This document shows positions 113 to 35,124 of a stretch of DNA of 55,955 nt, piece by piece. The stretch lies in the NCBI RefSeq assembly GCF_003053565.1, contig NZ_QAXS01000020.1, forward strand, positions 1-55,955. Reading direction: 5' to 3'. Within the stretch, counting starts at the first letter, position 1, and each line of letters opens with the position of its first letter. The notes beneath the pieces are model-generated. The model saw only the letters and a list, made by a program, of their open reading frames with translations, did not search any database and had not been told where the DNA came from. Position numbers and translations under genes: made by a program. Source of the stretch: Halanaerobium saccharolyticum (GTDB lineage Bacteria > Bacillota > Halanaerobiia > Halanaerobiales > Halanaerobiaceae).

Positions 113-141
113 TTGAAGGGTTAATATAAATATGTTATAAT
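113..141 (+). promoter_or_regulatory. Sigma-A-type promoter for OLE RNA
   Basis: A -35 element TTGAAG (113-118) and a perfect -10 element TATAAT (136-141) are separated by exactly 17 nt. The predicted transcription start is about 147-149, only a few bases before the first strand of the proposed OLE closing helix at 153. That coincidence supports both calls. Confidence 0.75.
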
Positions 142-147
142 TAGTTA

Positions 148-720
148 AAATGCAGATGGTGCAGTATTCTAGTCAGCATACTATCTTTGAAGGCGGGCCT
201 AAAAATCCGTCAACGGGCATATCGATGAAGTTCTTTGTAATGGCTGCTGACGCCCAGTCGGGGGCCATTGCAGGGAGATAAGGGCTTGGGGCGATCCACA
301 ACGGCATGTGGGCGTTGACCCCTTTCCCGCGGAGGCCTGGTCGAGTTATTAAATACATAGCAAGGCCAGGTTCACCTGTTCTAACCGCAAGGTTGAGCAG
401 TGTAGCCTGCTTTGAAGTGGTACTGGAGACAGTAGCAAAACACAGGCGCCTGGATCCAGCCCTGGGTTGAACCTGCTGGAAACCAGTACTGCAAAAGAAG
501 CTAGGAGATAGTTTAAATGCTGTCAAGGAAAACTTCTAGACTGTCCAGAAGGGATATAATAGGGATTAAAGTGTGTTCTGAGTGGTAATCCAGCTCTGCA
601 GTGGGAGACCCTGCAGCGGGAATTTAAAGAGAAATCTCCTGAATGGCGACAGACAGGAATTCCCGGGGAAAACCTGCTGGACCTATGACACAGCATTTAT
701 CTATTATATTACCATCTGTT
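148..720 (+). ncRNA. ole: OLE RNA (ornate large extremophilic RNA)
   Basis: This GC-richer, non-coding, highly structured stretch of about 570 nt sits directly upstream of an OapA-like four-helix membrane protein and then dxs, tlyA, nadK, recN and spo0A. That is the genomic setting known for OLE RNA, which in extremophilic and anaerobic Firmicutes is about 600 nt and forms a membrane-associated ribonucleoprotein with OapA. Visible helices include CAGATGGT (153-160) with ACCATCTG (711-718) as a terminal closing helix, AGTAT/ATACT (163-167/178-182), GTACTGG/CCAGTAC (420-426/483-489), and a hairpin near 596-616. The 5' end is set by the promoter; the 3' end is inferred from the closing helix. 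The class assignment rests on size, structure and context plus general resemblance of the unpaired conserved blocks. It was not checked with a covariance model. Confidence 0.82.
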
Positions 721-744: not shown

Positions 745-1302
745 TTGGCTAATTTAAAGAGCAGTATTATTATTGCTATTATGACTTTTTTTATTGCGGT
801 AAGTGTCTCATCAGTCTCGCAGACACAGGTACAATTTGTACCCCTACCGATGGCAGTAATAATACTGTTAATTATTATTATAGTAGGTGTTTTATCTGAT
901 ATGGTTGGAGTGGCAGCTACTGTTGCCAGGACTGAACCGTTTAACGCAAAGGCAGCAAAAAAAATATTTGGTGCTAAAACTTCCCTTTATCTGGCGAAAA
1001 ATGGTGATAAAGTAGCAAGTTTAATGTGTGATATAGTTGGTGATATCTGTGGAACTATCAGTGGTGCAATCAGTGCAGTTATTGCAATTGATTTGATTAA
1101 CTACTATGGTTTTTCGAATTTATGGACCAATCTGACATTAATTGGACTGGCTTCAGCCTTAACTGTTGGTGGAAAGGCATTTTTTAAATATTACGGAATG
1201 AAGAACTCGACAAAGATTATTTTTCTAGTTGGCCGTTTTCTAGCATTTTTTCATCTGACTTATGATAAAATTTACGGTTTTCTAAAAAAGAGGTGGATTT
1301 AA
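745..1302 (+). CDS. oapA: OLE-associated membrane protein OapA
   Basis: A small integral membrane protein of 185 residues that in characterised bacteria binds OLE RNA and recruits it to the membrane. I chose the TTG at 745 because a strong Shine-Dalgarno TGAGGTGA (732-739) lies just before it. An ATG at 643 in the same frame would read through the 3' part of OLE RNA and has no ribosome-binding site. Hydrophobic segments lie near residues 7-22, 30-50, 90-112 and 120-140. The loop before the third one contains an aspartate pair, D96-x-x-x-D100 (in CDIVGD), matching the conserved DXXXD motif of OapA. The C-terminus is basic (GFLKKRW). dxs follows after 4 nt. Family membership is from motif and context; function is from studied homologues. 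Confidence 0.82.
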   Translation: MANLKSSIIIAIMTFFIAVSVSSVSQTQVQFVPLPMAVIILLIIIIVGVLSDMVGVAATVARTEPFNAKAAKKIFGAKTSLYLAKNGDKVASLMCDIVGDICGTISGAISAVIAIDLINYYGFSNLWTNLTLIGLASALTVGGKAFFKYYGMKNSTKIIFLVGRFLAFFHLTYDKIYGFLKKRWI

Positions 1303-1306
1303 TTTA

Positions 1307-3238
1307 ATGAGTGACTATTTAGCGAAAATAAATGGAGTAGATGATTTAAAAAGATTAAAGGGGTCTCAGCTGAAAGAACTGGCTGCTGAAATTAGAGAAT
1401 TTTTACTGGAAAATATTTCAAAAACAGGCGGCCATCTGGCTTCAAACCTGGGAACAGTAGAACTGACAATTGCCCTGCATCATTATTTGAACAGTCCCAC
1501 AGATAAAATTATCTGGGATGTTGGCCACCAGGCTTATACCCATAAAATTTTAACCGGACGCAGAGACTGCTTTGCAAATTTGAGACAGAAAGACGGAATG
1601 AGTGGTTATCCCAAGTGTGCTGAGTCTCCTCACGATATCATTGGAGCCGGCCACAGCAGCACTTCAATTTCAGCAGCAGTTGGACTGGCTATGGCAAGAG
1701 AAAACCTTGACGAAATGGGAGATATTTACGCAGTAATCGGTGATGGAGCCCTGACTGGCGGAATGGCTTTTGAAGCCCTAAACCATGCCGGTCATATTGG
1801 TGCTGATATAAATGTGATTTTAAACGATAACGAGATGTCAATCTCCAATAATGTGGGAGCTATTTCTAATTATTTAGCCAATTTAAGAAATGATCCAACT
1901 CTAAAAAGAGTCAAGGAAGATATAGAATTTTTAATTAATAAGATTCCCCGCTTTGGTAAGACTGTTTCTAATACAGTTGATCGGGTTAAGAGCGCTTTAA
2001 AATACAGCTTTATTCAGGGAGTTCTTTTTGAAGAATTTGGTTTTAACTATCTGGGACCTGTAGATGGTCATGATATCATCGAATTAATGAAATACTTTAA
2101 GCAGGCAGAAGCGATCGAAGGGCCTGTGCTTTTACATGTTATAACTAAAAAAGGAAAGGGCTACCCACCTGCTGAAAATAACCCTGATAAATTTCACGGT
2201 GTTGGAGCTTTTAATATTGAAGACGGCAGTTCAAAGACGGTCAAAACAAAAGCAAGCTACAGTAAAGTCTTTGGTGAAACTCTAACTAGAATGGCTGAGT
2301 CAGATAAAAAGATCGCTGGAGTGACAGCAGCAATGCCCTCTGGAACAGGAATGGAGATATTTGCTCGTTCTTACCCAGAAAGATATTATGATGTCGGGAT
2401 AGCCGAACAGCATGCAGTAACTATGTCAACAGGTCTGGCCAGAGGTGGAATGAAACCTGTCTGTGCAATTTATTCAACTTTTCTGCAGCGGGCCTATGAT
2501 CAGGTTATTCACGATGCTGCGATTCAGAATTTAGATTTAACTATCGCTGTCGATCGAGCAGGTATTGTCGGCAATGATGGTGAAACTCATCAGGGGTTAT
2601 TTGATTATTCTTTTCTGCGCCCTGTGCCCAATTTAGTTATGATGGCTGTCAGAGATGCAGAACAGCTGCAGCATATGTTATATACTGCTGTTAATTATGA
2701 GGGTCCAGCTGTACTCCGCTATCCACGGGGTAGTGCTGCTGGAGATTATAAGCCTCTTAAAGTTGAAGAATTAAAAAATCTGGAGATCGGTAAGGCAGAG
2801 GAGTTAATCAAAATCGAAGCAGAAATGGATCTCACCATTCTGGCAGTTGGCTCAACTGTCTATCCAGCTCAAAAAGCAGCTGAAATTTTAAATAATAATG
2901 GCTATAAAACAGCTTTAGTTGATGCTCGTTTTATTAAGCCTCTGGATGAAGAAATGATCACCAGAGCACTTAAGAACTCAGAAAATATTATTACTGTTGA
3001 AGAACAGGTACTGGCTGGAGGTTTTTCTTCTGCTGTCCTGGAGTTTGCTGCCGACCGAGGTATTTCTCCCAAAAATATTAGGAGAATTGGTGTTGGCGAT
3101 GAGTTTGTCAGCCAGGGCGGAATGGATGAAATGAAGAAAGAATATCAGCTGGATGCCAGAGGTATTCTTAAAAATGCACTTTCTTTGCTTGCTCAGGCAG
3201 AGGAGGTAAATAAGTTATGGCCAGAAAAGAAAGATTAG
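1307..3238 (+). CDS. dxs: 1-deoxy-D-xylulose-5-phosphate synthase
   Basis: First enzyme of the MEP isoprenoid pathway. It condenses pyruvate and glyceraldehyde 3-phosphate to DXP with thiamine diphosphate and also feeds thiamine and pyridoxal synthesis. The 643-residue length is normal. The thiamine-diphosphate/Mg motif starts with GDGALTGG at about residue 145 and ends with NDNEMSIS. The N-terminal region has HVGH-like GHQAYTHKIL and GHSSTSIS motifs. The transketolase pyrimidine domain carries the catalytic glutamate in IAEQHAV (E367). The C-terminal transketolase domain is complete. The start is 4 nt after oapA, with GAGGTGG upstream, so it is probably translated from the OLE-oapA transcript. 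Its 3' end overlaps tlyA by 22 nt. dxr, the next enzyme of the pathway, is at 53.6 kb. Confidence 0.97.
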   Translation: MSDYLAKINGVDDLKRLKGSQLKELAAEIREFLLENISKTGGHLASNLGTVELTIALHHYLNSPTDKIIWDVGHQAYTHKILTGRRDCFANLRQKDGMSGYPKCAESPHDIIGAGHSSTSISAAVGLAMARENLDEMGDIYAVIGDGALTGGMAFEALNHAGHIGADINVILNDNEMSISNNVGAISNYLANLRNDPTLKRVKEDIEFLINKIPRFGKTVSNTVDRVKSALKYSFIQGVLFEEFGFNYLGPVDGHDIIELMKYFKQAEAIEGPVLLHVITKKGKGYPPAENNPDKFHGVGAFNIEDGSSKTVKTKASYSKVFGETLTRMAESDKKIAGVTAAMPSGTGMEIFARSYPERYYDVGIAEQHAVTMSTGLARGGMKPVCAIYSTFLQRAYDQVIHDAAIQNLDLTIAVDRAGIVGNDGETHQGLFDYSFLRPVPNLVMMAVRDAEQLQHMLYTAVNYEGPAVLRYPRGSAAGDYKPLKVEELKNLEIGKAEELIKIEAEMDLTILAVGSTVYPAQKAAEILNNNGYKTALVDARFIKPLDEEMITRALKNSENIITVEEQVLAGGFSSAVLEFAADRGISPKNIRRIGVGDEFVSQGGMDEMKKEYQLDARGILKNALSLLAQAEEVNKLWPEKKD

Positions 3239-4044
3239 ACATTGTAGTAACTGAAAGAGGTATGTTTAGAAGCCGCTCTCAGGCAAAAAGAGCAATTATG
3301 GCCGGTCTGGTTTTTGTTGATGGTCAGAGGGAAGATAAGGCAGGAACTCAGATTGATCCGGAAGCTGAAATTGAGTATCGGGGTGATAAAAACCCTTATG
3401 TTAGCCGAGGAGGTCTTAAGCTGGAGAAGGCACTTGAAATTTTTGCTGTTGACCCTGCAGCTAAAGAAGCAATTGACATCGGTGCCTCTACAGGTGGTTT
3501 TACTGATTGTCTGCTTCAGCACGGGGCGACAAAAGTTTATGCCATTGATGTCGGTTACGGTCAGCTGGCCTGGAAACTTCGTCAGGACAAAAGAGTTGAG
3601 GTGCTGGAGAGATGTAATTTCCGCCATTTAGAAAAGGATCAGCTGCCGGTTGAAGTTCCACTGGTAGTCACTGATGTTTCTTTTATTTCCCTGCGGCTGA
3701 TTGTACCGGGGGTTAAGAAATTTATTAAAAACAATGGTGATTTTATTGCTTTAATTAAACCACAGTTTGAAGCCGGCAGAGAACGGGTCGGCAAAAATGG
3801 TGTGGTTAAAGACCCGGCAGTACATATAGATGTAATTGAAAGCTTAAGTGATTTTTTTCTTAAAGAGGGTTTTGAACCACTTGCCCTAAATTATTCGCCA
3901 ATTACCGGTGCCCAGAGTAAAAATATTGAATATTTAGTTCATCTCAGATATTGCGAAAATAAGCCTGAATTTGACCGCCAGAGCTGGCAGGATAAAATAA
4001 ATAAAACTGTCAGGACGGCCCATACAGAGCTGGGGGGTTCTTAA
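3217..4044 (+). CDS. tlyA: TlyA family rRNA (cytidine-2'-O)-methyltransferase
   Basis: Predicted SAM-dependent methyltransferase of the TlyA/RrmJ-fold family, which 2'-O-methylates cytidines in 16S and/or 23S rRNA (the family affects capreomycin sensitivity). An S4 RNA-binding domain occupies about residues 1-65 (ERGMFRSRSQAKRAIMAGLV). The methyltransferase domain follows, with SAM motif IDIGASTGGFTDCLL near residue 87, DVSFISL, and IKPQFEAGRE. The 275-residue length is normal. Translation starts inside the end of dxs with AGAGGAGG upstream, implying translational coupling. nadK follows after 1 nt. Confidence 0.93.
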   Translation: MARKERLDIVVTERGMFRSRSQAKRAIMAGLVFVDGQREDKAGTQIDPEAEIEYRGDKNPYVSRGGLKLEKALEIFAVDPAAKEAIDIGASTGGFTDCLLQHGATKVYAIDVGYGQLAWKLRQDKRVEVLERCNFRHLEKDQLPVEVPLVVTDVSFISLRLIVPGVKKFIKNNGDFIALIKPQFEAGRERVGKNGVVKDPAVHIDVIESLSDFFLKEGFEPLALNYSPITGAQSKNIEYLVHLRYCENKPEFDRQSWQDKINKTVRTAHTELGGS

Positions 4045-4045
4045 A

Positions 4046-4897
4046 ATGAAAGCTGCATTAATAGTTAATTTAGATAAAAAAGAAGCCTTTACTGTTGCTG
4101 AAAGAGCTGTTGAGTGGTTTGAAAAAAGGGATAAAGAATTTCTGATTGAAAAGAGGGCTGCCTATCAGCTTGGTCAGAAAAAAAGAGGAGCAGATTACCA
4201 GCAGATTAAAAGAGAAGCAGACTACATAATAATCATTGGTGGTGATGGAACTTTTCTGCACAGCTCTCACCATTTTATCGGCAGTGAGATTCCACTCCTG
4301 GGAATTAATGTCGGCCACCTGGGCTTTTTAACAGATGTAGAAACTGATGAATTGATCAAAGCACTGGAAATGATCGATAATAATAATTATAATATCGAAA
4401 AGAGAATGATGCTGCAGACAGAACACTACCGAAGTGAAGAAAAAATAAACAGCAGTTATGCCCTCAATGATTATGTCATTAATCGAGATCCAGATTCTCA
4501 GATGCTTAAAATAGAGCTTTATATCAATAATGAGCTTGTCAATAATTTTCGGGGTGATGGTTTGATTATTGCTACCCCAACTGGATCTACAGCTTACTCT
4601 CTTTCGGCTGGAGGACCAATTATTAATCCCCGTCAGATCAAAGCGATTTTGATTACTCCAATCTGTCCTCATAATCTCCACCTGCGGCCGATGGTGATTT
4701 CTGCCGAAGAAAGAATCAGAATCAAAGTAGATAGTGATGGCCGCTCTGTTAAAGGCTGTGCAGATGGCAGACAGAAGAATGAGATTATTCCCGGTGATGA
4801 GATTTATATCAGTGGGGCAGACCAGGAATTATCAATTATTAAATTGCCTGACCGAACTTTTTACACTACTGTTAAAGAAAAAATGCACCTTGCCTAA
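4046..4897 (+). CDS. nadK: NAD kinase
   Basis: Phosphorylates NAD+ to NADP+ using ATP or polyphosphate. The 283-residue protein has the diagnostic GGDGTFLH motif at residues 65-72, the NxGxLGFLT motif (NVGHLGFLTD), and the NAD-binding TPTGSTAYSLSAGGPI block. It starts immediately after tlyA with GGGGGGTTC upstream. In many Clostridia argR lies between nadK and recN; here recN follows after 24 nt, so argR is absent from this position. Part of the oapA-dxs-tlyA-nadK-recN operon. Confidence 0.96.
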   Translation: MKAALIVNLDKKEAFTVAERAVEWFEKRDKEFLIEKRAAYQLGQKKRGADYQQIKREADYIIIIGGDGTFLHSSHHFIGSEIPLLGINVGHLGFLTDVETDELIKALEMIDNNNYNIEKRMMLQTEHYRSEEKINSSYALNDYVINRDPDSQMLKIELYINNELVNNFRGDGLIIATPTGSTAYSLSAGGPIINPRQIKAILITPICPHNLHLRPMVISAEERIRIKVDSDGRSVKGCADGRQKNEIIPGDEIYISGADQELSIIKLPDRTFYTTVKEKMHLA

Positions 4898-4921: not shown

Positions 4922-6598
4922 ATGCTCAGTGATCTACAGGTTAAGAATTTCGCCTTAATCAATAAGGTGAACATTAATTTTAAACAGGGATTAAATATTT
5001 TAAGCGGAGAAACCGGTGCCGGTAAATCTATTATTATCGGAGCCCTGGATCTTTTGCTTGGAGCCCGGGCAAATACTGATATAATCCGCAGTGGTAAAGA
5101 AGCAGCCTATATCTCTGCTTTTTTTCAGCCTGAAGAGCTCGAAATAATTAATCAAATTTTGAGTGAGGCCGGAATCGAAAAAGAGGAGAGTGGAATCCTG
5201 ATTGCCAGGGAAATTCGGGAAAATGGGCGCAACCGCACCCTGATTAACGGTCAGCTTGCCACCCTGAAAATCGTTAAAAAAATCAGCCGCTATTTGATTG
5301 ACATCCACGGTCAGCATGAGCATCAGCTGCTTTTGGATCAAAGCTCTCACCTGATGGTTCTCGATGCTTTTATCGGTGATAAAATTAAGCCTTTAAAAAG
5401 CGAAATTAAAAGTCAGTATCAAAAACTGCTTCAGCTGCGCCAGGAGCTCTCTGAAATTGAAATTGATGATTCTCAGCGGGCAAGAGAACTGGATATTATT
5501 AATTTTCAGATTGAAGAAATTGAAGAGGCAGCTTTAAAAGAAGGTGAATACGAAGACTTAAAAGAGGAATACCAGACCCTTTCTCACGGAGAGGAAATCT
5601 ACAGAGTTGTGGCAGAATTAATATCTGCTCTTAGTGGTGATGATTACAAAGATAAGGGGATAATGGACCGGCTCTCAGTTCTAAAAAATAAATTTGCAGA
5701 AATTGAAGATTATAATCAGGAACTAAAAGAGCTAAATCAAAAATTTGCTGATATTTATTATGGTCTGGAAGAGTTCAGCTTTGATTTAAGTGATTTTGAA
5801 AGTTCTTTTGCCTATGATGAGGAAAGAATCTCAATGATTAGTGACCGTCTGGATCTGATCAATACTCTGCTGAGAAAATACGGAGAAGATGTGGAGACGG
5901 TAATTTCTTATCTGCAGGAACTTTATCAAAAAAGGGATAAATTAGAGAATGTTGAAGAAAAAATTGCTTCACTAACTAAAAGGGAACAAGAATTAAAAAA
6001 AGAGCTTACTGATAAGTCTAAAAAGCTTTCCCGGCACCGAAAAGAATCTGCTAAAAATCTAGAAACACAGTTAAAAAATGAACTTCAGGATCTGGCAATG
6101 GAAGATGTCAGGTTTAAAGTTGATTTTAAAGAAAAAGAAATTTCTGCTGATGGTACTGACCAGATTGAATTTTTAATTTCTCCCAACCGGGGTGAAGAGT
6201 TAAAATCACTTTCTAAAATTGCTTCCGGAGGAGAGTTATCGCGGATAATGCTCTCACTAAAAACCATTACCGCTGATCTTGATCAGGTTGATACCCTGGT
6301 TTTTGATGAGGTTGACAGTGGTGTTGGTGGCAAAACAGCTGCCAAGATGGCTTCAAAACTTACCCAGATTTCCAGAGACAGACAGATTATCTGTATTACA
6401 CATCTGCCTCAGCTGGCAAGTGCAGCCAACCATCACTTCTTAATTCAAAAAGAAAAGGGAGAAAACAGAACTTTTACTCAAATTTATGCTTTAGATAGAG
6501 CCGAAAGAGTTAAAGAGATTGCCAGGATGATTGGTGGGACAAAAATGACTGAAAAAACTCTTGCTCATGCAGAAGAATTACTGCTGATGGCTGAATAA
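4922..6598 (+). CDS. recN: DNA repair protein RecN
   Basis: SMC-like ATPase that acts at DNA double-strand breaks in recombinational repair. The 558-residue protein has an N-terminal Walker A GETGAGKS at residues 29-36. A long central region is rich in E/K/L heptads, typical of an antiparallel coiled coil. The C-terminal half has the ABC signature (SKIASGGELSRIML) and Walker B (TLVFDEVDSGVGG), followed by the H-loop ITHLPQLAS. A good ribosome-binding site (GACAGGAGG) precedes ATG 4922. It is the last gene of the OLE-headed operon before a terminator. Confidence 0.96.
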   Translation: MLSDLQVKNFALINKVNINFKQGLNILSGETGAGKSIIIGALDLLLGARANTDIIRSGKEAAYISAFFQPEELEIINQILSEAGIEKEESGILIAREIRENGRNRTLINGQLATLKIVKKISRYLIDIHGQHEHQLLLDQSSHLMVLDAFIGDKIKPLKSEIKSQYQKLLQLRQELSEIEIDDSQRARELDIINFQIEEIEEAALKEGEYEDLKEEYQTLSHGEEIYRVVAELISALSGDDYKDKGIMDRLSVLKNKFAEIEDYNQELKELNQKFADIYYGLEEFSFDLSDFESSFAYDEERISMISDRLDLINTLLRKYGEDVETVISYLQELYQKRDKLENVEEKIASLTKREQELKKELTDKSKKLSRHRKESAKNLETQLKNELQDLAMEDVRFKVDFKEKEISADGTDQIEFLISPNRGEELKSLSKIASGGELSRIMLSLKTITADLDQVDTLVFDEVDSGVGGKTAAKMASKLTQISRDRQIICITHLPQLASAANHHFLIQKEKGENRTFTQIYALDRAERVKEIARMIGGTKMTEKTLAHAEELLLMAE

Positions 6599-6705: not shown

Positions 6706-7494
6706 ATGGAAAAGACTATTGATATTTTGATTGTTGATGATAATAAGGAATTTTGTCAGCTCTTAGCTGAATTTTTTGATGAAAATGATGATTTTAATGT
6801 AGTGGGAATGCTTTATGATGGTGAGCAGGCTTTAGAATATCTTGAAAACAATAAAAAGCCGGATGTATTGATTTTAGATTTGATAATGCCTCATCTGGAT
6901 GGAATTGGAGTCTTAGAAGAGTTAAACTCCAAAGAACTAATAGATGAAATGAAAATTGTTGCTTTAACTGCAATGGGACATGATAAAATAATGAAAACAG
7001 TCCTTGAACTTGGAGTTCATTATTATATTATGAAACCCTTTGACCTGGATAAATTGACCCAGAGAATAAAACAGCTGATGGAAGCAGAGAGTAGCGCTGC
7101 TGATAATTTTACAGTTCAAAATGCAGAATTAGAGGTTGAAAATGGAAACTACAAGCCCCTGATAACTAAAATTATTCAGGAACTTGGAATCCCGGCGCAC
7201 ATCAAAGGCTACCGCTATGTGCGTCAGGCTGTTGAACTGGTAATTAAAGATATGGATTTACTTGGTGCGGTAACTAAAGAACTTTACCCCCAGGTGGCAG
7301 AGAAATTTGATTCTACCCCGAGCCGTGTTGAGAGAGCTATTAGACATGCAATTGATGTTGTCTGGCAGCGGGGAAATCAAAAAGCACTGGAAAAATACTT
7401 TAAAAATAATATTAACGAAAATGTTAAGCCGACCAATTCACAGTTTATTGCCAGAATCGCTGATACAATAATGGTTAATTTAAAAGTTTCATAA
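6706..7494 (+). CDS. spo0A: Stage 0 sporulation response regulator Spo0A
   Basis: Response regulator and transcription factor that commits Firmicutes to sporulation and other stationary-phase programmes. Residues 1-120 form a receiver domain with the acidic pocket D11-D12, phospho-acceptor D58 (LILDLIMP), the T/A switch (ALTA) and K of MKPF. After a linker, residues about 150-262 form the Spo0A DNA-binding domain, with the diagnostic helix SRVERAIRHAIDVVWQRGN. Length (262) is normal. A strong GAGGGGG ribosome-binding site precedes ATG 6706. Many relatives in Halanaerobiales are not observed to sporulate, so the target programme here is unclear. Confidence 0.96.
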   Translation: MEKTIDILIVDDNKEFCQLLAEFFDENDDFNVVGMLYDGEQALEYLENNKKPDVLILDLIMPHLDGIGVLEELNSKELIDEMKIVALTAMGHDKIMKTVLELGVHYYIMKPFDLDKLTQRIKQLMEAESSAADNFTVQNAELEVENGNYKPLITKIIQELGIPAHIKGYRYVRQAVELVIKDMDLLGAVTKELYPQVAEKFDSTPSRVERAIRHAIDVVWQRGNQKALEKYFKNNINENVKPTNSQFIARIADTIMVNLKVS

Positions 7495-32760: not shown

Positions 32761-32997
32761 CAAAATACCTCCTTAAATAGAATATATTATATAATTATGT
32801 AAATAAATAGAAACTCCTGCATAAAAAATTAATTTTTTTATTATAATCTGGGAGAAGAAAAGTAAAGATCTTATTTAATAAGTAATTTCTATAATATTCA
32901 AAAGATAATTATTTTGGATTATTATAAATTAATTAGAGGATTTCAGCTGAATTTAAAGAATAATAATTATTAGAAAAGAAAATAATGTTCTCTTTTT

Positions 32998-33195
32998 AGG
33001 TGCTTCTTTAAATTAGAAGATAATAGGGAATCAGGTGAAATTCCTGAACGGGTCCGCCACTGTTAATCAGTAGGCCGATTAATTACCACTCACTCATCAA
33101 TGGCGCTGGGGAAGGTAAATCGGTAGAGCTGTAAAGTCAGGAGACCTGCCTAAAAGGATAACAGCCATCTTCGAGACAGGACTGGTTGTGGGCTA
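32998..33195 (+). promoter_or_regulatory. Cobalamin (adenosylcobalamin-type) riboswitch
   Basis: The aptamer is recognised by GGTGAAATTCC (33035-33045), the GGTCCGCCACTGT segment (about 33051-33063), the GGCGCTGGGGAAGG core (about 33102-33115) and the B12 box AAGTCAGGAGACCTGCC (33134-33150). It precedes a BtuB-like receptor gene, the usual target. A terminator hairpin immediately downstream (33209-33244) would be the expression platform: cobalamin binding favours termination, so the uptake genes are on when the vitamin is scarce. The region 32764-32997 upstream is AT-rich, with no gene; a promoter is likely there but no single choice is compelling. Confidence 0.93.
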
Positions 33196-33208
33196 ACTAT
33201 ATCTATTC

Positions 33209-33244
33209 TGACACCCTCAATGTATCCTTAGGGTGTCATTTTTT
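33209..33244 (+). terminator. Riboswitch expression-platform terminator
   Basis: TGACACCCT (33209-33217) pairs perfectly with AGGGTGTCA (33230-33238), followed by six T. Its place between the B12 box and the receptor start, 65 nt before the ATG, fits transcriptional control by the cobalamin riboswitch. Confidence 0.85.
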
Positions 33245-33309
33245 GTTTGTTTAGCCTTTTTTGTCTTAGGTGGCTGTGAGCAGACAAAAAACTCAAGGAG
33301 GAATTATTT

Positions 33310-35124
33310 ATGTTAAGAAAAACAGTTTTAGTCATGCTTACAGCACTCTTGATTTTTGCAGTGCCAGTAAGTGCCGAGGAAGAAGTTATGGAATTGGATG
33401 AGGTAGTCGTGACAGCAAGTCGTTATCAGGAAAGTATTATGGAGACTCCTGTCAGTATTGAGGTTATTGATCAGGAAGAGATAGAAGAGAGCAATGCCAG
33501 GAATTTAGCAGATCTTCTGCAGGATGCAGGTGGGGTTTATATTAAAAACTTCAGTGGGTTAACTGGAAAAAAAGATATAATAATTAGAGGAGCAAGACAG
33601 GACCAAATATTATACTTACTTGATGGTCAGCCTTTAAATAGTCCTCAGGATGGTGTAATTAGACTGGAGGATATTCCTATTTCAGTTATTAAAAAAATTG
33701 AAATTTCTAAGTCTGCCTCATCTTCAATTTATGGTGCAAATGCTATGGGAGGCGTAATCAATATTGTAACTCAAGACGCCGATCAGGAGAATAAAACAGA
33801 GATTGATTTTGGTTTAGGTTCATATAATACTCAAAATTATATTTTAACAACAAATTATAATTTTGATAATTCTTCAATATTTATCTCGTATGATAAATTA
33901 AGTAGTGATGATCATCGAGATGATCCTGATCAAGAGTCGGCATTGGATCGTAATGATTTATTTTTAAAATACAAATATAATCTGAGTAAAAAATCAACTT
34001 TTAACTTTTCATACAGATATAATAATGTTGAATCAAATTATCCAGGCTCAGATGCAAATGATGACTATGGTTTTCGTGATGACCAGGATAAGAATATCAA
34101 AATCTCTCTGAATCAAAATTTAGATAATAGAGATAGAACATTTTTATTATACAGTAATAATCGAGAGATGTATGATAGAACCAGAAGTACCTGGAGTTTA
34201 ACTGGATATAATCTAACTGATATAGATATTTTAAAAAGAGGTTTTAATTATAAAGAAACAAATTATTATTTTGACAACCATACATTAATTTATGGTTTTG
34301 AAATAGTAGAAAATGAAGTTAAAGATAATCAATTAGAAACTAATAATAAACATAGCAATCTAAATAAATCTTTATATATCCAGGATAAATTTAGAGTAAA
34401 TAATAATATTTTTGTTTATGGAGGAAGATATGATGATCATGAAGAGTATGGATCTAATTTAAGCCCTAAATTTGGATATATTTATCAAATAAATAATAAT
34501 TGGAATTTTAATTTTAATTATGGTGAATCATATAGGGCACCAACATTTCTAGATTTATATACTGGTTTTGGTAGCAACGAAAATTTAAAAGTGGAAGAGG
34601 GTAAAACTTTTGATTTAGGTTTTAAATATTCAGATTCAATTTGTAGCAGAGAGATTACATTTTTTAAAAGAAATTTCGAACAGTTAATCAATTATAATTC
34701 TGATACATTTATGATGGAAAATATTGATGAAGCTGAAATCAAAGGAATAGAGTTATTAACATCTAGAAAAATAGATGATAATTGGAGTGTTGATTTTGCA
34801 TACACCTATTTAGAAGCTAGAGATGATAGTGTTGATGGCCAGTCATTAAATATGCCATATAATCAGATTGCTTTAAATACAAAATACAGCGGCAAAAATT
34901 ATAAAGTTGTTCTTGACAATAGATATGTTGGTGAAACAAATTCTTATGGTGGGGAAACGGTAGAATCATATTTCTTATCTGATTTAAGATTATCTACAAA
35001 TTTAAGTAAAAACAAAGAACTTTCAGTTGAAATCAACAATCTTTTCGACAAAGACTATGAAGTAGTAGACGGTTATCCAATGCCGGGCCGCAACTTTATG
35101 GTGAACTTAAGCACTAACTTTTAA
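33310..35124 (+). CDS. btuB: TonB-dependent outer membrane receptor, BtuB-like (cobalamin uptake)
   Basis: Outer-membrane active transporter of 604 residues. A signal peptide (MLRKTVLVMLTALLIFAVPV, then SAEE) is followed by a TonB box (MELDEVVVTASR). The plug domain follows to about residue 150 (GGVINIVT at its end), then a beta-barrel of alternating aromatic strands. It ends in an aromatic terminal strand (GRNFMVNLSTNF), the outer-membrane insertion signal. The cobalamin riboswitch upstream indicates a corrinoid ligand. It is richer in N, D and Y codons and AT than core genes around it, compatible with horizontal origin or with relaxed barrel composition. CAAGGAGG precedes ATG 33310. Confidence 0.9.
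   Translation: MLRKTVLVMLTALLIFAVPVSAEEEVMELDEVVVTASRYQESIMETPVSIEVIDQEEIEESNARNLADLLQDAGGVYIKNFSGLTGKKDIIIRGARQDQILYLLDGQPLNSPQDGVIRLEDIPISVIKKIEISKSASSSIYGANAMGGVINIVTQDADQENKTEIDFGLGSYNTQNYILTTNYNFDNSSIFISYDKLSSDDHRDDPDQESALDRNDLFLKYKYNLSKKSTFNFSYRYNNVESNYPGSDANDDYGFRDDQDKNIKISLNQNLDNRDRTFLLYSNNREMYDRTRSTWSLTGYNLTDIDILKRGFNYKETNYYFDNHTLIYGFEIVENEVKDNQLETNNKHSNLNKSLYIQDKFRVNNNIFVYGGRYDDHEEYGSNLSPKFGYIYQINNNWNFNFNYGESYRAPTFLDLYTGFGSNENLKVEEGKTFDLGFKYSDSICSREITFFKRNFEQLINYNSDTFMMENIDEAEIKGIELLTSRKIDDNWSVDFAYTYLEARDDSVDGQSLNMPYNQIALNTKYSGKNYKVVLDNRYVGETNSYGGETVESYFLSDLRLSTNLSKNKELSVEINNLFDKDYEVVDGYPMPGRNFMVNLSTNF

Follow-up and report, generated by a model that had tools for sequence, protein, structure and literature searches.

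The stretch at positions 148–720 (+) of the window, the 55,955-nt piece of Halanaerobium DNA analysed here, is almost certainly a complete OLE RNA gene, and most likely a functional one judging from its sequence; OLE is a large structured bacterial RNA that acts at the cell membrane. The first-pass annotation had proposed an OLE RNA at this place and named the Rfam OLE covariance model as a check. When the entire window is scanned with Rfam (cmscan), two hits are returned, the first of which is OLE (RF01071) at 140–731 on the plus strand with 452 bits (E 1.6e-129); the match covers the full model, positions 1–616, is far above the gathering score of 50 bits, and bears out the proposed identity. 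The stretch therefore belongs to an already known RNA family, and a genome-wide check shows that the host carries one copy. A promoter with 17-nt spacing and a GC-richer, structured stretch of about 570 nt had also been described, and both are found. The promoter lies at 113–141, and a TATAAT matching its -10 element just upstream of OLE is present in all 31 of the genomes compared, with a spacing of mostly 17 nt. With transcription expected from around position 148 and the last base of the closing helix, P1, at 718, the boundaries 148–720 are accurate. The GC content is 0.45–0.55 within the stretch and about 0.30 outside it, and the folding energy is -227.6 kcal/mol compared to -179.0 kcal/mol for shuffled sequences, about 7 s.d. 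lower, with none of 100 shuffles as low; both properties agree with a structured RNA. The elements of the gene are as follows.

148–720, plus strand: OLE RNA gene (Rfam match 140–731; fold z -6.95; observed covariation reached by 0 of 500 shuffles)
113–141, plus strand: promoter TTGAAG-17 nt-TATAAT with an extended -10 (TG), agreeing with the consensus at 10 of 12 positions
153–160, plus strand: 5′ strand of P1, pairing with 711–718 (8 bp; 7 of 8 pairs compensatory, 99.6% of cells paired)
174–185, plus strand: 5′ strands of P3 and P3.1, pairing with 517–522 and 507–512 (12 bp; 10 of 12 pairs compensatory)
192–211, plus strand: P4 hairpin with A-rich loop CCUAAAAA (loop AAAAA invariant in 32 genomes)
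221–230, plus strand: J4a/5 AUCGAUGAAG, k-turn strand and predicted OapC target (model positions 83–92; C85 is window position 223)
231–277, plus strand: P5/P5.1 hairpin, with loop GCCCA at 252–256 complementary to the P6.1 loop (9 of 20 pairs compensatory)
282–328, plus strand: P6/P6.1, with loop ACGGCA at 301–306 (alignment, structure and covariation)
409–501, plus strand: P9 arm with apical palindrome GGAUCC at 452–457, a putative L9.3 kissing-loop site (alignment and structure)
637–658, plus strand: P13 hairpin with apical UGGCGACA, the predicted OapB target region (alignment and structure)

The secondary structure was evaluated in an alignment of the 32 OLE RNAs of class Halanaerobiia, with the Rfam structure overlaid and with P1, P3 and P3.1, which are unpaired in the Rfam model, added. 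Compensatory changes on both sides are seen at 107 of the 167 base pairs, and none of 500 shuffles reach the observed values. The proportion of cells that are paired is 89.2%, compared to 38–47% when the structure is slid along the alignment, although some excess over the slid versions is expected because the structure was drawn partly from the family model and the window sequence; the compensatory changes are independent of the source of the structure. P3 cells are paired in 98% and P3.1 cells in 90% of cases. Together these helices provide a 12-bp stem that would correspond to the proposed membrane-crossing stem, 12 bp being the length suggested to cross the membrane (Lyon and Breaker 2025, PMC12265935).

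These patterns also bear on two other readings of the region. A minus-strand frame at 173–526 and a plus-strand frame at 643–1302 are both open, but the sequence changes follow base pairs, and it is only from the TTG at 745, which has a ribosome site in front of it, that homology to OapA is seen, so that we regard it as extremely improbable that either frame is a real gene in this region. A cis-acting leader of the oapA-dxs operon, either riboswitch-like or an attenuator rather than a separate RNA, would account for the position of OLE directly upstream of oapA and for the lack of any terminator found between them. However, the family matched here over its full length has been investigated as a stable RNA within an RNP (PMC11332333, PMC9723947), the stretch shows neither an expression platform nor a terminator, and the conserved bases of the 32-genome alignment are scattered across the whole 570 nt; a leader is thus very unlikely, and we continue with the reading of the stretch as a separate OLE RNA.

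The genes to the right are those that the first-pass annotation had read from context, with an OapA-type gene followed by dxs, tlyA, nadK, recN and spo0A:

745–1302, plus strand: oapA, 185-aa CNNM-like membrane protein (PF01595, E 2.5e-4, below the cut-off)
1307–3238, plus strand: dxs (TIGR00204, 816 bits)
3217–4044, plus strand: tlyA (TIGR00478, 254 bits)
4046–4897, plus strand: nadK (PF20143 and PF01513)
4922–6598, plus strand: recN (PF02463 SMC_N/RecN, and place in the operon)
6706–7494, plus strand: spo0A (TIGR02875, 326 bits)

The TTG start codon of oapA is preceded by the ribosome site GAGGTG, and the closest OapA relatives in named genomes are those of MAG 5-U2 (97% identity) and H. kushneri (96%), which puts the window within Halanaerobium. 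The Spo0A neighbourhood had been singled out as notable but is ordinary, as sporulation genes are reported to lie near ole and to be correlated with it (Fernando and Breaker 2024, PMC11332333). At the left end of the window, positions 1–95 contain only the last few ispA codons and have no match to the ispA 3′ end that is present here in Halanaerobium relatives; this end of the contig may be chimeric or lie next to an insertion.

The protein partners OapA, OapB and OapC are all encoded by the host. The oapB gene lies between map and infA, and although the PF00467 (KOW) profile detects no OapB in this genome, the product matches the OLE-associated protein B structure PDB 7k9b (E 2e-8); OapB is cited as binding P13 in PMC11332333 and PMC12265935, and the P13 loop is present alongside the gene. 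OapC is an 83-residue YbxF protein encoded between rpoC and rpsL (matching 4lck and 3v7e at E 3e-12), and it too is accompanied by its predicted target, the J4a/5 k-turn with C85. Across the class, OapA relatives are found in all 32 OLE genomes and elsewhere only as short remnants in two genomes, and they also adjoin OLE in Syntrophomonas, Sinobaca and Salibacterium; OapA looks indispensable in the class. Among class genomes that are at least 95% complete, OapC occurs in 21 of 23 with OLE and in none of 18 others, and OapB in 17 of 23 and none of 18, with p-values (1e-9 and 7e-7, respectively) that are too small because related genomes are treated as independent. Two further genomes, G014 and G015, give no OapC call because their contigs end before the expected site. 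Across a broader set of 398 genomes, where scores with the YbxF profile are clearly two-peaked, OapC is present in 285 of 289 OLE genomes and 66 of 109 others, a share well above the approximately 45% of OLE genomes published, although sampling and cut-offs differ.

Four Halanaerobium genomes (G018, H. congolense; G021, H. polyolivorans; G019 and G022) retain OLE, OapA and OapC but not OapB. Their map-infA gaps are 96–203 bases rather than the usual ~370 and have the form of deletion scars, which in G018 and G022 retain the last oapB codons including the infA ribosome site, and a phylogeny of the OLE-oapA region requires oapB to have been lost independently three times within the genus. We looked for decay of P13 after loss of OapB, but P13 has no unique change in these four RNAs, and the idea that the protein and its site are lost as a pair is not borne out in them; either oapB disappeared only recently or P13 also serves some other purpose.

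OapC has been lost together with changes in its predicted site in one instance. Neither OapB nor OapC is found in G032 and G033, two genomes of a single genus in a related family, and among class members that carry OLE and are 95% complete or better, they alone are without OapC. The rpoC-rpsL gap of G032 is about half its usual length and contains an apparent oapC 3′ end (AAASAVLLN), making a gap in the assembly a less likely explanation. The OLE RNAs of the two genomes differ at nine otherwise invariant positions, two of which are C85 and G86 of J4a/5, with A87 also changed in one of them. The genus carries C85A, the same exchange that in B. halodurans eliminated both the binding of OapC and the function of OLE (PMC9723947); the C85 numbering was matched through the Rfam model and the U84-C85 context of that report, without the B. 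halodurans sequence. Because these lineages dropped them yet kept OLE, OapB, and in one case OapC, are accessory to it.

Whether the k-turn change follows from the loss of OapC is less certain. The palindrome AUCGAU within J4a/5 overlaps C85–A87 and is near a proposed OapA site, such sites being assigned to palindromic sequences within or close to P2 and P4a (PMC12265935), and it is quite conceivable, at somewhat below even chances, that the changes at C85, G86 and A87 reflect altered OapA binding or drift rather than OapC loss. A general rule of joint loss had been set as a prediction beforehand and was sought in further genomes; the phylum sample holds four OLE genomes without detectable OapC, and the three examined (G134, G158 and G228, which may be incomplete assemblies from which OapC is simply missing) all retain CGAUGAAG. 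The prediction fails in these three genomes, and the G032/G033 pattern is therefore a single event. Against altered OapA binding or drift, none of the other OLE RNAs compared, about 100 sequences, departs from C85, and the change coincides with the only near-complete OLE genomes of the class lacking OapC, one of which bears the gene remnant. Separately, the OLE of G392 (L104) has CAAUGAAG in place of CGAUGAAG, and that genome has OapC.

Loss of OLE itself can be seen in comparison with the MpfA genes. Within the 59 genomes of the class, MpfA is present in 21 of 32 OLE genomes and in all 27 OLE-free genomes (p = 0.0005), in line with the proposal in the literature that MpfA can take the place of OLE. 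Halalkalibacterium (Bacillus) halodurans lacks mpfA (PMC11332333). The host genome has both, so that OLE is not its sole candidate system of this kind, and the absence of MpfA from OLE genomes expected under the OLE/MpfA anticorrelation of PMC11332333 is not seen in it or in most OLE genomes of the class. One genus (G010–G012) includes a deletion: G010 has OLE and OapA with no MpfA detected, whereas G011 and G012 have MpfA, and cmscan finds no OLE remnants in either. G012 has lost OLE and the greater part of oapA by deletion, its ispA-dxs interval containing a 55-aa frame (L033:3666–3833) that matches part of OapA, and the genome still encodes OapB, OapC and MpfA.

The host is a salt-loving anaerobe with two membranes. 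It encodes lpxC, as do 55 of the 59 genomes of the class and 30 of the 32 with OLE, and the window contains an outer-membrane gene:

33310–35124: TonB-dependent B12 receptor-like (BtuB-like) gene (match below the model cut-off)

From lpxC and this gene the host is taken to be an LPS-type diderm. A cobalamin riboswitch (102 bits) is located upstream of the receptor-like gene (window 32981–35124). The link between OLE and a diderm made in the first-pass annotation thus stands, but it is less new than implied, because OLE occurs in 32 of the 59 Halanaerobiia genomes and, as Fernando and Breaker 2024 (PMC11332333) report, in almost all major classes of Bacillota, though not in Negativicutes. As the Negativicutes, which stain Gram-negative, are the sole major class without OLE, a connection with the cell wall has been tentatively suggested (PMC11332333). 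OLE has been described as a Gram-positive RNA; its presence in Halanaerobiia argues against the simple version of a Gram-positive wall link, and its conservation in LPS-type diderms also constrains the transmembrane model.

Dimerisation, membrane insertion, protein binding and a part in stress responses are extrapolated from H. halodurans and from the Clostridium structures. On this basis the ~575-nt RNA would dimerise through three sets of loops, namely the A-rich L4, L5/L6 and GGAUCC on P9; OapA would hold it at the inner membrane, the J4a/5 kink turn would receive OapC and P13 would receive OapB, and the particle may contribute to tolerance of Mg2+, cold and alcohol stress. OapA-dependent membrane localisation and the cold, ethanol and Mg2+ phenotypes come from H. 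halodurans and E. coli only (PMC10898510, PMC12265935). Should the transmembrane model hold, the place of domain 2 would be the periplasm beneath the outer membrane. We speculate, with considerable doubt, that in these diderms OLE may amount to little more than the RNA and an inner-membrane OapA, domain 2 being periplasmic; OapB would be dispensable, given its three or more losses within a single genus, and OapC and the k-turn would have been jointly discarded once via C85A. The natural oapB deletions in Halanaerobium and the genus without oapB and oapC offer ready-made tests of which partners are needed.

Overall the system is closest to the Halalkalibacterium (Bacillus) halodurans type of OLE, sharing the full-length RF01071 match, the substructures, the downstream oapA, the OapB and OapC genes and the dxs-recN-spo0A context, but its host is an LPS-type diderm that keeps an MpfA-type gene and has close relatives without oapB. 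OLE variants 1 and 2 (TANB77 and RF39 clades, PMC11332333) resemble Halanaerobiia in keeping OLE without OapB and/or OapC, whereas the Halanaerobiia RNAs are full length and the OapB site of Halanaerobium is intact though the gene has been lost. OapA shares a weak CNNM match with the MpfA/CorB Mg2+ transporters, as reported for the family, but is without their CBS and CorC domains.

The dimer contact sequences L4, L5/L6 and L9.3 are all present in the window RNA, as loop sequences. Compared to the Clostridium acetobutylicum OLE, seen as a dimer by cryo-EM (PMC12286853), the window RNA shares the A-rich L4, which corresponds to dimer bridge B1 there and in PMC12265935, the complementary L5.1/L6.1 loops, and an L9.3 palindrome of the GAUC form reported there for OLE. 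In contrast, the class member G016 (L007:1501–2044) has neither the distal P9 arm nor its kissing loop, in a nearly complete genome and with an RNA that still scores 489 bits. The L9.3 loop is non-palindromic in G009 (L015) and G013 (L012), and in G039 (L003) it is GGUACC, a palindrome outside the forms named in the accessible part of PMC12286853.
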